Below, in pieces: positions 1 to 3,979 of a stretch of 64,000 nt of DNA. Numbering within the stretch: position 1 is the first letter of the stretch; every line of letters begins with the position of its first letter. Below the pieces are notes generated by a model. That model saw only the letters and a program-made list of their open reading frames with translations. It made no database searches and was not told where the DNA came from. The position numbers were made by a program, and so were the translations under genes. Origin of the DNA: Thiohalophilus thiocyanatoxydans (GTDB taxonomy: Bacteria; Pseudomonadota; Gammaproteobacteria; UBA6429; Thiohalophilaceae); the NCBI RefSeq assembly GCF_004366735.1, contig NZ_SOQX01000003.1, positions 186,001 to 250,000 on the forward strand, given 5' to 3'.

Positions 1-817
1 GGCTGCCCAGGGCGTCGTCGAGCAGTTCGGCCGCCAGATCCCTGGCCCCCTCCAGGCCGAGCAGGGCGGGGTAGGTGGGCTTGTTGCGAGCCAGATCGGC
101 CCCGCGGGCCTTGCCCAGCGTCTCGGTATCGCCTTCGACATCCAGGATATCGTCCTGGATCTGGAAGGCCAGGCCGATGCATTTGGCGTAATGATCCAGC
201 TGGTGCAGGGTGTCAGGGTCGATGCCGGGACGACACAGGGCGCCGAGTTTGACGCTGGCGCGGATCAGGGCGCCGGTTTTGTGGATATGCATGTTCTCCA
301 GCTCGGCGATGTTCAGCTCCCGCCCCACGGCCCCCAGATCGATGGCCTGGCCCCCGGCCATGCCGCGTGAGCCGCTGGCCAGGGCCAGATCATCGAGCAT
401 CTGCAGGCGTTGTGCGGCGGGAATCTGCGGATCCAGATGCCGGGCCAGGACGTAAAAGGCCAGCGATTGCAGGGCATCGCCGCAGAGGATGGCGGTGGCC
501 TCGTCGAAGGCCCTGTGCACCGTGGGCTGGCCGCGGCGCAGATCGTCGTCATCCATGGCGGGCAGATCGTCGTGGACCAGGGAATAGGCGTGGATCAGCT
601 CCACGGCCGTTGCCGGCGCATCGAGGTGTTCGGGGGCCACGCCCAGCGCCTGGCCGGCGGCGTAGGTGAGTACCGGGCGGACCCGTTTCCCCCCGTTGAA
701 CACGGCATAGCGCATCGCCTGGTGCAGGCGTTGCGGCAGGGTCTCCGCCGTAGGGAGCCAGCGATCCAGCGCGCGGTCGGCACGCTGTTGCCATTGTTCG
801 ATCAGTGCTTCGGTCAC
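1..817 (-). CDS. ispA: Farnesyl/geranyl diphosphate synthase, 3' end outside window
   Basis: Condenses IPP with DMAPP/GPP to make farnesyl diphosphate for quinone and undecaprenyl lipid synthesis in the cytosol. Translated on the minus strand from a GTG at 817-815, it shows the first aspartate-rich motif (DDLPAMDDDD, about residues 81-90) and the second (DDILD, about residue 220), both needed for Mg-diphosphate binding in trans-prenyltransferases. The reading frame is still open at base 1, so the C terminus is missing. It starts 3 bp after the xseB stop, so the two are co-transcribed. This xseB-ispA pair, usually followed by dxs, is standard in gammaproteobacteria. FPP versus GGPP product cannot be decided here. 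Confidence 0.93.
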   Translation of the reverse strand, partial: MTEALIEQWQQRADRALDRWLPTAETLPQRLHQAMRYAVFNGGKRVRPVLTYAAGQALGVAPEHLDAPATAVELIHAYSLVHDDLPAMDDDDLRRGQPTVHRAFDEATAILCGDALQSLAFYVLARHLDPQIPAAQRLQMLDDLALASGSRGMAGGQAIDLGAVGRELNIAELENMHIHKTGALIRASVKLGALCRPGIDPDTLHQLDHYAKCIGLAFQIQDDILDVEGDTETLGKARGADLARNKPTYPALLGLEGARDLAAELLDDALGS

Positions 818-820
818 GGC

Positions 821-1099
821 TTACTGATCATCCGGCTCAAAGGGGACCAGCTCTTCCTGGCCGTTTTGCTGCAGCAGTTGTTCGACTTTCTGTTCCGCGG
901 TTTTCAGCGCCTGCTGGCAGCTGCGGGTCAGGGCGACGCCGCGTTCGAAATCCTTGAGCGATTGCTCAAGGGTCTGGTCCCCCTGTTCCATGCGCTCCAC
1001 CAGCGCCTCCAGCTCGGCCAGGGATTTTTCGAAATCGGGGGCGGCGGTTTTGGCCGCCGTCTTTTTGCTGGTTTTCTTTTTGCTATCTTTTTGGGTCAC
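821..1099 (-). CDS. xseB: Exodeoxyribonuclease VII small subunit
   Basis: Small subunit of the ExoVII single-strand DNA nuclease, which works with XseA. The 92-residue product begins at GTG (1099-1097). It has a Lys-rich, probably disordered leader (KDSKKKTSKK) before the conserved helical core FEKSLAELEALVERMEQGD, followed by the typical LEQSLKDFERGVALTRSCQ segment. The leader makes it somewhat longer than the usual ~80 residues. It is the first gene of an operon with ispA. The partner xseA lies 35 kb away in this window, so the subunits are not co-transcribed. Confidence 0.93.
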   Translation of the reverse strand: MTQKDSKKKTSKKTAAKTAAPDFEKSLAELEALVERMEQGDQTLEQSLKDFERGVALTRSCQQALKTAEQKVEQLLQQNGQEELVPFEPDDQ

Positions 1100-1265: not shown

Positions 1266-1336
1266 GTTTAGACTGAGTCTTGACAGGGGCAAGCGGCTGG
1301 TCTATCTTACTATCACGATTTAGACAGAGTCTAAAT
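1266..1336 (+). promoter_or_regulatory. Rubrerythrin promoter with two matching palindromic operators
   Basis: A promoter is readable: TTGACA at 1280-1285, a 17-bp spacer, and TATCTT at 1303-1308, putting the start near 1315. A perfect inverted repeat, ATTTAGAC-AGA-GTCTAAAT, lies at 1318-1336, just past the start. A weaker copy, GTTTAGACTGAGTCTTGAC, at 1266-1284 covers the -35 box. Their centres are 52 bp apart, about five helical turns. The layout fits a repressor that bridges the promoter. TTTAGA(C)-N3-(G)TCTAAA resembles Fur-superfamily (PerR/Irr-type) boxes; naming PerR is inference from the peroxide role of rubrerythrins. Confidence 0.6.
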
Positions 1337-1379: not shown

Positions 1380-1802
1380 ATGGCAGAACTGAAAGGCAGC
1401 AAGACCGAACAGAGTCTGAAGGACGCCTTCTCCGGCGAGTCCCAGGCTAACCGTCGTTACCTGTACTTTGCGGCCAAGGCCGACGTCGAAGGCTACAACG
1501 ATGTCTCCGCTGTATTCCGCTCAACCGCGGAAGGTGAAACCGGCCATGCCCACGGCCATCTGGAATATCTGGAACAGTCCGGTGACCCGGCAACCGGTCT
1601 GCCCATCGGCGGTACCGCGGACAACCTGAAAGCCGCGATCGCGGGTGAAACCCACGAATACACCGACATGTATCCGGGGATGGCCAAGACCGCGCGCGAC
1701 GAAGGCTTCGACGAAGTCGCCGACTGGTTCGAAACCCTGGCCAAGGCGGAACGCTCTCACGCGAACCGTTTCCAGAAGGCCCTGGACAACCTGGATTCCT
1801 GA
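1380..1802 (+). CDS. Rubrerythrin-type diiron protein (no rubredoxin domain)
   Basis: Ferritin-like diiron protein; rubrerythrins reduce hydrogen peroxide in the cytosol. From the ATG at 1380 the product is 140 residues. The diiron ligands are visible: E20, the ExxH pair E53/H56, E90/E93 and the second ExxH pair E124/H127. There is no C-terminal CxxC rubredoxin domain, so electrons must come from a separate donor. The ATG at 1380 was chosen over the in-frame one at 1365 because GGAGGA at 1367-1372 gives ideal ribosome-binding spacing. A strong terminator follows directly, so it is likely transcribed alone or attenuated before the Fe-S gene. Rubrerythrin, an HdrD-like Fe-S protein and DUF3501 often occur together in proteobacteria. 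Confidence 0.93.
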
Positions 1803-1898: not shown

Positions 1899-3233
1899 AT
1901 GGCCGGTTCAAACGTTCGTGAAGGTAGTCTCGATGCACCAACTCGTCATCCGATTGACTGGCAAAGCGAGTCGTTCTATGACGAACAGGCACTCAACGAC
2001 GAGCTGGAAAGGGTCTTCGATATCTGTCACGGGTGTCGTCGCTGCGTAAGCCTGTGCCACTCATTCCCGACGTTATTCGATCTGGTGGACGAATCCGAGA
2101 CCATGGAAGTCGATGGTGTTGCCAAAGACGATTTCTGGAAAGTCGTGGAGCACTGTTATCTGTGTGATCTGTGCTACATGACCAAATGTCCTTATGTGCC
2201 GCCGCACGAATGGAATGTGGATTTTCCACACCTGATGTTGCGCGCCAAGGCCGTCAAATTCAAAAAAGAGGGCACGAGTTTCCGTAACAAGATGCTCTCC
2301 TCAACCGACACGGTGGGCAAGATCGCCGGTATTCCGGTGGTCGCCCAGACCGTCAATACCGTGAACAATATCAAACCGCTGCGCAAGCTGATGCAGCCGG
2401 TTACCGGCATCCATGCCGAAGCCACGTTGCCGCGTTTTGAAAGTAAGTCGTATCGCCAGCGCTTCAAGGGCAGCGGCGATATGCAGGCCGATCCCGGTGA
2501 AACCACCTGGGGCAAGGTGGCGATGTTCGCGACCTGCTACGGGAACCGCAATGAACCGGGCATGAATGAAGACATGGTCGCGGTGCTGGAGCATAACGGC
2601 ATCCCGGTGGTGCTGGCCGAGAAGGAACAGTGCTGCGGTATGCCCAAGCTGGAACTGGGCGATCTGGAGTCGGTGGCGAAGGCCAAAGATGCCAACATTC
2701 CGGCGCTGGCCAAACTGGTGGATGAAGGTTATGACCTGATCGCGCCGATTCCCTCCTGCGCGCTGATGTTCAGGCAGGAACTGCCGCTGATGTTCCCCGA
2801 TGACGAGGATGTCAAAAAAGTCCAGCAGGCGTTTTACGATCCGTTTGAATACCTGATGCTGCGCCACAAGGAAGGCAAACTGAACACCGACTTCCCCAAC
2901 AGGCTGGGCAAGGTCGCCTACCACGTGGCCTGCCACCAGCGGGTGCAGAACATCGGTCTGAAAACCCGGGACGCCCTGAAGCTGGTACCCGATACCGAAA
3001 TTGAAGTCATCGAGCGCTGCTCGGGCCATGACGGTACCTACGCGGTGAAAAAGGAGTACCACGAGATCTCCATGAAAATCTGCCGCCCGGTGACCAACAA
3101 GGTCAAACAGGCCGAACCGGACCACTACACCAGTGACTGCATCATGGCCGGCCATCAGATCGAAAACGGCCTGCGCGACGGCTCGCATCCCGAACACCCG
3201 ATGACCCTGCTGCGAGTTGCTTACGGTATATAA
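1899..3233 (+). CDS. HdrD/GlpC-like iron-sulfur protein with CCG domains
   Basis: Cytosolic or membrane-peripheral electron-transfer protein of 444 residues. Two [4Fe-4S] motifs are visible: C43, C46, C49, C53 and C86, C89, C92, C97 (the latter followed by Pro). Two CCG-type domains follow, of the kind found in heterodisulfide reductase HdrD, GlpC and LutA. The first has a canonical CCG (EKEQCCGMP); the second reads CSG, so one cysteine is replaced by serine. Located between rubrerythrin and DUF3501, it is a plausible electron donor for peroxide reduction by the rubrerythrin, but that is inference. No catalytic FAD or Mo subunit lies nearby, so glycerol-3-phosphate dehydrogenase or heterodisulfide reductase activity is not supported. 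Confidence 0.85.
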   Translation: MAGSNVREGSLDAPTRHPIDWQSESFYDEQALNDELERVFDICHGCRRCVSLCHSFPTLFDLVDESETMEVDGVAKDDFWKVVEHCYLCDLCYMTKCPYVPPHEWNVDFPHLMLRAKAVKFKKEGTSFRNKMLSSTDTVGKIAGIPVVAQTVNTVNNIKPLRKLMQPVTGIHAEATLPRFESKSYRQRFKGSGDMQADPGETTWGKVAMFATCYGNRNEPGMNEDMVAVLEHNGIPVVLAEKEQCCGMPKLELGDLESVAKAKDANIPALAKLVDEGYDLIAPIPSCALMFRQELPLMFPDDEDVKKVQQAFYDPFEYLMLRHKEGKLNTDFPNRLGKVAYHVACHQRVQNIGLKTRDALKLVPDTEIEVIERCSGHDGTYAVKKEYHEISMKICRPVTNKVKQAEPDHYTSDCIMAGHQIENGLRDGSHPEHPMTLLRVAYGI

Positions 3234-3235
3234 GC

Positions 3236-3275
3236 AACAGGGCCGAGGGACGAGTTACGAGGGACGAGGAAAAGC
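3236..3275. repeat. Dispersed 40-bp repeat (family B), single arm
   Basis: The 40 bases starting right after the Fe-S gene are identical to 16832-16871. The core is GGGACGAG-TTAC-GAGGGACGAG. Only one arm is present here, whereas the other locus has an inverted pair. Confidence 0.85.
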
Positions 3276-3280
3276 ACTCA

Positions 3281-3338
3281 CCACCAAGACACCAAGAAAA
3301 TAAATAATTTATTACTTGGTGTCTTTGTGCCTTGGTGG
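3281..3338. repeat. Imperfect inverted repeat (CCACCAAG type)
   Basis: The left arm CCACCAAGACACCAAG (3281-3296) pairs with the right arm at 3315-3338 around an AT-rich centre; the right arm carries 8 extra bases. It lies between the HdrD-like and DUF3501 genes and is probably a mobile-repeat remnant or mRNA hairpin. Confidence 0.75.
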
Positions 3339-3397
3339 AGAGATTTTAGTTGCTTTGTTTTTGACCGAATACACATGCAGATTCGAGAGGTTTGATA

Positions 3398-3979
3398 ATG
3401 GCTACGTTGACACGTGACGATCTGATGTCGCTGGAAGAGTACGCGAAACAACGCAAGGATTTCCGCAGCAAGGTTCTTGAGCATAAAAAGTACCGCAAGG
3501 TCCCGCTGTCGGAACATGCGACTTTGTATTTCGAGGATCGGCTGACTATCCAGTACCAGATTCAGGAGATGTTGCGGGTCGAACGCATTTTTGAACAGGA
3601 AGGGATCCAGGATGAACTGGATGCCTACAACCCGTTAATCCCCGATGGCAGCAACCTCAAGGCCACCTTCATGATCGAATACGAAGATGAAGAGGAGCGT
3701 AAAAAGGCCCTGGCCCAGCTGATCGGTGTGGAGGACAAGGTCTGGGTTCAGATCGAGGGGCACGACAAGGTCTATGCCATTGCCGACGAGGATATGGAAC
3801 GGGAAGACGAGACCAAGACCTCGTCGGTCCACTTCATGCGCTTCGAGTTTGAACCGGCCATGGCCGAAGCGGTTAAAAACGGCGCGGCGATCAATATGGG
3901 TGTCGACCACGAGAACCTGACAACCAGCATTACCGTCAGTGACGATACCCGCAAGGCGCTGGTGGCCGACTTTCAGTAA
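3398..3979 (+). CDS. DUF3501 family protein
   Basis: A 193-residue cytosolic protein of unknown biochemical function, recognised by its opening (TRDDLMSLEEYAKQR) and by the ALYFED/QIQEMLRVERIF region typical of DUF3501. Residues about 80-150 are strongly acidic (YEDEEERKK, DEDMEREDETK). I chose the ATG at 3398 over the in-frame TTG at 3392 because homologues start with a short leader before LTRDDL. It belongs with the rubrerythrin and HdrD-like genes, and co-occurrence is the only functional clue. A bidirectional-looking terminator follows immediately. Confidence 0.85.
   Translation: MATLTRDDLMSLEEYAKQRKDFRSKVLEHKKYRKVPLSEHATLYFEDRLTIQYQIQEMLRVERIFEQEGIQDELDAYNPLIPDGSNLKATFMIEYEDEEERKKALAQLIGVEDKVWVQIEGHDKVYAIADEDMEREDETKTSSVHFMRFEFEPAMAEAVKNGAAINMGVDHENLTTSITVSDDTRKALVADFQ

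Follow-up and report, generated by a model that had tools for sequence, protein, structure and literature searches.

OxyR is the regulator to which the peroxide response of Gammaproteobacteria is generally attributed, and the genome of Thiohalophilus thiocyanatoxydans does carry an OxyR-like gene (40% identity). A preliminary description of its rubrerythrin gene (rbr) had placed two palindromic operators of an unusual type at the promoter, which raises the question of what protein could act there and on which other genes. The window considered here is a stretch of 64,000 nucleotides of contig NZ_SOQX01000003.1 (positions 186,001 to 250,000), and the features discussed are collected in Table 1. 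Judged from sequence comparisons, the two palindromes are probably operators for an Irr/PerR-type repressor with a peroxide-defence regulon, for which we infer both the binding and the signal.

Table 1. Features of the rbr locus (window positions) and the candidate regulator gene (contig C10)
Feature	Position	Strand	Basis or remark
xseB, encoding the small subunit of exonuclease VII, divergent from rbr	821-1099	-	PF02609
Upstream degenerate box GTTTAGACTGAGTCTTGAC = GTTTAGAC-TGA-GTCTTGAC	1266-1284	.	Putative operator/-35 composite
-35 hexamer TTGACA	1280-1285	+	Promoter scan; bases common to upstream box
-10 hexamer TATCTT	1303-1308	+	Promoter scan
Main operator (predicted), perfect 8-3-8 palindrome ATTTAGAC-AGA-GTCTAAAT, 19 bp	1318-1336	.	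Sequence inspection
rbr ribosome-binding site GGAGGAAA	1367-1374	+	By inspection
rbr, 140-aa rubrerythrin of the aerobic type, no rubredoxin domain	1380-1802	+	Pfam PF02915, 101.5 bits
RFO, GlpC-like Fe-S oxidoreductase	1899-3233	+	Profile matches; name from PMC5114695
DUF3501 protein, third gene of rbr cluster	3398-3979	+	PF12007, 258.3 bits
Irr-like Fur-family protein, 143 aa, no cysteine	C10:24640-25068		Pfam FUR

The rbr operon and its promoter

The three genes downstream of the boxes form an aerobic-type rubrerythrin cluster, as they are co-located and the rubrerythrin has no rubredoxin domain. This rubrerythrin lineage and the rbr-RFO-DUF3501 cluster were described by Cardenas et al. 2016 (PMC5114695), in whose main text the words "regulator", "promoter" and "Irr" are absent. 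On the other side, a polyprenyl-synthase-like gene and xseB lie divergently upstream of rbr (window positions 1-1099), and the xseB-rbr neighbourhood is also found in other families (L036, L044, L045, L050). No evidence at the rbr locus supports control of xseB by the boxes. Between RFO and the DUF3501 gene there is a repeat-like stretch (3241-3350) with GAGGGACGAG-type copies and the inverted pair CACCAAGACACCAAG/CTTGGTGTCTT, and similar sequence of the GAGGGACGAG type is also present upstream of the Irr-like gene on contig C10.

Both palindromes, the perfect and the degenerate copy, were found again at the positions described before, with centres at 1275 and 1327, 52 bp apart. The promoter scan gave a -35/-10 spacer of 17 and 10 of 12 matches over both hexamers, and from it the transcription start is placed near 1315. 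As had been claimed, the degenerate copy overlaps the -35 hexamer and the perfect copy stands just past the predicted start, beginning some 3-4 nt after it and spanning about +4 to +22.

The motif is not enriched in number, either in the window, where 28 of 100 shuffles reach 2 matches at ≤3 mismatches, or genome-wide, with 46 matches versus 91 for the reversed control. The perfect box did not appear in any of 20,000 base shuffles of the 180-bp rbr promoter. Since the raw counts are not enriched, the significance of the motif rests on its position and conservation.

Conservation of the box in related genomes

The analysis of conservation covered 70 copies of rbr, drawn from 69 related genomes, and used the 300 bp upstream, the pattern TTTAGA(A/C)-N3-(G/T)TCTAAA and the reversed pattern as a control. 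Upstream of aerobic-type rbr the box is exact in 41 of the 70 copies, and it is found in 47 with ≤1 mismatch and in 54 with ≤2 mismatches, versus 0/70 for the control at every mismatch level. The palindrome is thus kept in close relatives, as expected of an operator in the preliminary description, and to judge by these counts the rbr box is selected and not a product of chance. Across the 54 boxes the bases TTAGA and TCTAA are nearly invariant, the centre prefers TNA, and the distance to the rbr ATG ranges from -22 to -131. The inner pair is mixed (A...G in 21 boxes, C...G in 14, C...T in 11 and A...T in 6), a variation in keeping with half-sites that a protein reads tolerantly and at odds with an RNA stem.

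A second, degenerate box at 51-53 bp spacing was found in 10 genomes from 7 genera of the family, where it is kept roughly as TTTAGA(A/C)..AGTCTTGACA with small variations. In these two-box promoters the DNA between the conserved elements has diverged, and the -10 is TATCTT in eight of the ten, with TATTTT and TATCGT in the remaining two. Most other relatives have a single box. The idea of an in-phase spacing for cooperative repression therefore stands only in part: the spacing is indeed near five helical turns, but cooperativity is not required, because most relatives have one box only. The 51-53 bp may simply follow promoter geometry, if one box has to cover the -35 and its partner the start site.

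A second Fur-family protein as the candidate regulator

The genome encodes two Fur-family proteins, a canonical Fur (C2:85497-85859, 152.9 bits) and the protein encoded on C10, whose Pfam FUR score of 67.4 bits against a curated cut-off of 23.1 makes it a member of the Fur superfamily. The best NCBIfam matches of the C10 protein are IrrA (134.9 bits) and Irr (128 bits), with PerRA and PerRB next. The first two scores are below the equivalog cut-offs (150 and 170, respectively), and the same is true of the PerR equivalogs (53.7 against 180 and 26.5 against 200). The homologues of all 20 relatives sampled match the same NCBIfam families.

A phylogenetic tree was built with seven alphaproteobacterial Irr, Leptospira PerRA, three PerR and four Fur proteins, and no Zur. 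The C10 protein and its homologues join the alphaproteobacterial Irr and Leptospira PerRA with a bootstrap of 92, in a clade separate from PerR and Fur; the gammaproteobacterial group, with PerRA inside, has a support of only 26. The named GTDB contig matches for the regulator include Chromatiales, Ectothiorhodospira, Thiohalomonas, Thiogranum, Hydrogenophilus, Sulfuriferula and other Betaproteobacteria.

Regarding the residues, H43, D91, H97, H99 and D110 are invariant in 70/70 regulator homologues and align with the regulatory metal ligands of PerR, H37, D85, H91, H93 and D104. The HxH motif is present in 70/70 homologues and the CxxC of the structural Cys4 zinc site in 0/70, the C10 protein being without any cysteine; the CP haem motif is also absent from it. 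In the recognition helix, Fur has VYR versus VYN in PerR and the Irr-like proteins.

A copy of the box, ACTAGACTTTGTCTAAA, is located 22 bp before the first ATG of the C10 regulator gene and adjoins a -10-like TATACT. In genus g11 (L087, L088, L165) the best site in the promoter of the regulator gene itself is TTGGACTT(C/T)ATCCAA and rbr was not found, so that a shift of the box and of the target set is possible there.

Other predicted sites and their co-occurrence with the regulator

Further occurrences of the motif had been expected in the genome, and the scan did find them: besides the site at the C10 regulator gene, there is a box 69 bp before gpmI (iPGM domains) and another 390 bp before katG. 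The gpmI product belongs to the independent-type phosphoglycerate mutases, enzymes that commonly depend on Mn. In relatives the gpmI box was found in 22/30 cases at ≤2 mismatches, versus 2/30 for the control. At some loci (L002, L204, L222, L223, L229) the genes divergent to gpmI are a conserved set that includes those of an ArsR-family regulator and a rhodanese-like protein; the box lies between both sides, closer to gpmI, and in some of them a glutaredoxin follows further on. The katG box is kept between both species of the genus, over an aligned stretch that is about 50% identical as a whole. Other own-genome matches at ≤2 mismatches (L003, L006, C6:19833, C2:368987) were set aside due to lack of conservation, lack of a promoter position or an ambiguous gene context. 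A box-like AATAGAACTGGTCTAAA is also found at C8:127959-127975 (L215 2460-2476), some 117 bp ahead of the gene for a proton-pumping pyrophosphatase (PF03030); it is identical in the sister species, but the whole intergenic stretch is 86% identical.

In relatives the box is also found upstream of the di-haem cytochrome c peroxidase gene (ccp) and of AhpC/Prx genes, and in single cases at a glutaredoxin-Prx cluster and at an oxyR-like/ccp divergent pair. Its presence at ccp and Prx tracks the regulator. The ccp box was found in 9/9 genomes with the regulator and in 1/8 without it (Fisher p=0.0004, relatedness uncorrected), and the Prx box in 11/16 and 1/14, respectively (Fisher p=0.0008, relatedness uncorrected). 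The lone exceptions without the regulator (G023 and G011) are assemblies 77% and 84% complete, and their genus-mates have it. At rbr, the association gave p=0.004 in genomes ≥90% complete at ≤2 mismatches (relatedness uncorrected) and p=0.15 over all genomes at ≤1 mismatch; at katG it gave p=0.10, with a box at 4/16 katG genes in regulator-bearing genomes.

Against the pairing speak discordant cases among the near-complete genomes: G013, G020 and G050 have the rbr box and no detected regulator, as is true of G126 with a weaker box, and G073, G103, G118, G100, G060 and G074 bear the regulator without a close rbr box. The OxyR-like gene of the T. thiocyanatoxydans genome is a further point against it. 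In G094, katG is preceded by a perfect box and rbr follows farther along that strand, and this may account for the absent rbr box there. G054, G078 and G096 have no Irr-like gene and no box, and a LysR/OxyR-type gene is directly beside rbr (on contigs C53, C2 and C35 of these assemblies), which suggests that one peroxide regulator has been replaced by another.

The proposal of a regulon is borne out in that the sites are multi-gene, related to peroxide defence and conserved in relatives (rbr, gpmI, ccp and Prx). Haem-synthesis, bacterioferritin and iron-uptake genes were not seen among the conserved sites. The pairing of the C10 regulator with the box seems likely from these comparisons, and this lineage would seem to possess a small network of peroxide defence of its own, in which a second Fur-family repressor would also have sites at other peroxide-defence genes.

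Proposed mechanism and alternative readings

In the simplest reading, the C10 repressor would occupy both the -35 and the start site, shut out RNA polymerase and thereby hold the rbr-RFO-DUF3501 operon low. Under peroxide stress the repressor would be lost or inactivated, either because a PerR-like Fe site is oxidized or by way of haem, as is known in relatives, and the operon would be released. The same protein would repress its own gene; its other targets would be gpmI and katG in this genome and, in relatives, the genes for cytochrome c peroxidase and AhpC/Prx. We infer the binding, its repressive sign and peroxide as the inducing signal; the content of the regulon (rbr, ccp, Prx, katG) is what suggests inactivation by peroxide. 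As for the signal itself, peroxide or redox is somewhat favoured over iron or haem supply alone. A bolder idea, which we put forward tentatively and hold slightly more doubtful than not, is that this widespread gamma- and betaproteobacterial Irr/PerRA-type regulator truly senses peroxide: it would have arisen outside the PerR clade and retained the Irr box, and it would couple peroxide defence to glycolysis via gpmI.

The protein could instead be an Irr proper, responsive to iron and haem, which would repress the genes of peroxide defence and of iron proteins when iron is scarce and be removed by haem, the effect of peroxide being indirect. The placement in the Irr clade, the Irr-type box, the conserved HxH and the ccp and rubrerythrin-like targets, which Irr of Rhodobacter sphaeroides has too, agree with this, but the conserved targets are mostly peroxide defence, with none of the haem-synthesis, bacterioferritin or iron-uptake genes among them, and the protein lacks the CP motif and scores under the Irr cut-offs. 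This reading is possible, although we consider it unlikely.

Binding of the boxes by the canonical Fur, with rbr as an ordinary iron-regulated gene, is improbable. The genome does encode a strong Fur, but Fur is also present in the box-less genomes examined and so does not track the box, in contrast to the Irr-like gene, which does so at ccp and Prx; its recognition helix also has Arg where PerR and the Irr-like proteins have Asn. Moreover, the rbr motif differs from the Fur consensus.

The downstream palindrome, a perfect inverted repeat just past the predicted start, might alternatively act at the RNA level, as a hairpin of the 5' leader, and not as a DNA operator. This was rejected as very improbable, because pairing would often fail at the inner bases: 32/54 rbr boxes have A...G or C...T at the innermost position, neither of them a standard RNA pair. 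The range of box positions relative to the ATG also speaks against a hairpin, as does the second box on the -35, outside the transcript. Finally, a chance AT-rich inverted repeat near rbr would fit genome-wide counts that do not exceed the control, but it is already contradicted by the conservation at rbr and the shared targets, and is hardly credible.

Returning to the Irr/PerR-type repressor, no report of the box and its regulon in Gammaproteobacteria was found in the open-access literature searched, and an earlier description in subscription journals or regulon databases is possible. Together, the conserved box, the conserved regulator and the shared targets predict a second network of peroxide response, open to direct test, for many sulfur- and sediment-dwelling lineages, from which the divergence in sensing among Irr, PerRA and PerR may become clearer. 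The gpmI site is an unexpected link between peroxide defence and central carbon metabolism.

Comparison with known Irr, PerR and PerRA systems

A close parallel is Irr of R. sphaeroides, which binds the promoters of mbfA, encoding a rubrerythrin-like protein, and ccpA (PMC3413700). Its box at mbfA, ccpA and suf P3, known as the iron control element, has, as here, TTAGAA-type half-sites with a 3-nt spacer (PMC3413700, PMC6956336), and the site bound in EMSA, TTAGAAATATTCTAGA (PMC6956336), has the same half-site and spacer as the rbr box when these candidate sites are compared by sequence. The earlier description of a Fur-superfamily box that differs from the usual Fur and PerR consensus thus holds, but the box is not wholly distinct, since it agrees in half-sites and spacer with that of alphaproteobacterial Irr. 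Transcription of mbfA starts within the Irr box (PMC3413700), so that the box lies at or just past the start, near the arrangement predicted for rbr; ccp and rubrerythrin-like targets are also predicted here. Irr is the best HMM match of the C10 protein, and the two have in common the lack of CxxC and the PerR-type Asp and Asn residues.

On the other hand, Irr is alphaproteobacterial, whereas the present system is found in Gamma- and Betaproteobacteria. Here the inner base is C about as frequently as A, an autoregulatory box is present in many genomes, and the targets include gpmI, Prx and the aerobic-type rbr operon, with no iron or haem genes seen. Alphaproteobacterial plasmid matches share about 33-41% identity with the C10 protein. 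In the cross-class check, most of the sampled alphaproteobacterial plasmid ccp and irr genes, and Burkholderia rbr, showed no clear box, with weak boxes only in Pannonibacter, Azospirillum and Microvirga.

Irr has been stated to be limited to Alphaproteobacteria, and PerRA and PerRB of Leptospira seem nearer to Irr than to PerR (PMC8638967). The closest solved sequence to the C10 protein is structure 5nl9 from this group, which also lacks CxxC and has PerR-type ligands. Irr-like boxes have been noted at Leptospira perRA, and a search with the perRA autoregulatory sites gave no further matches in Leptospira (PMC8638967). The group belongs to a different phylum, and the C10 protein reaches 90 and 82 bits against the corresponding NCBIfam cut-offs of 200 and 250.

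Irr/PerR-type proteins outside Alphaproteobacteria are not new in themselves, because PerR-type and Irr-type regulators were already predicted from sequence and gene context in Acidithiobacillus, described as gammaproteobacterial, where the PerR-type regulator adjoins an AhpC/Tsa peroxiredoxin; in the parts of these reports consulted, the predictions come without an Irr or PerR box or regulon (PMC2631029, PMC2621215). With respect to Bacillus-type PerR, the C10 protein differs in having no structural CxxC zinc site, another box and a place in a separate clade, but both have all five regulatory ligands, including the Asp (D110 = D104), and the Asn in the recognition helix, and the peroxide-defence regulon and autoregulation predicted here are alike.
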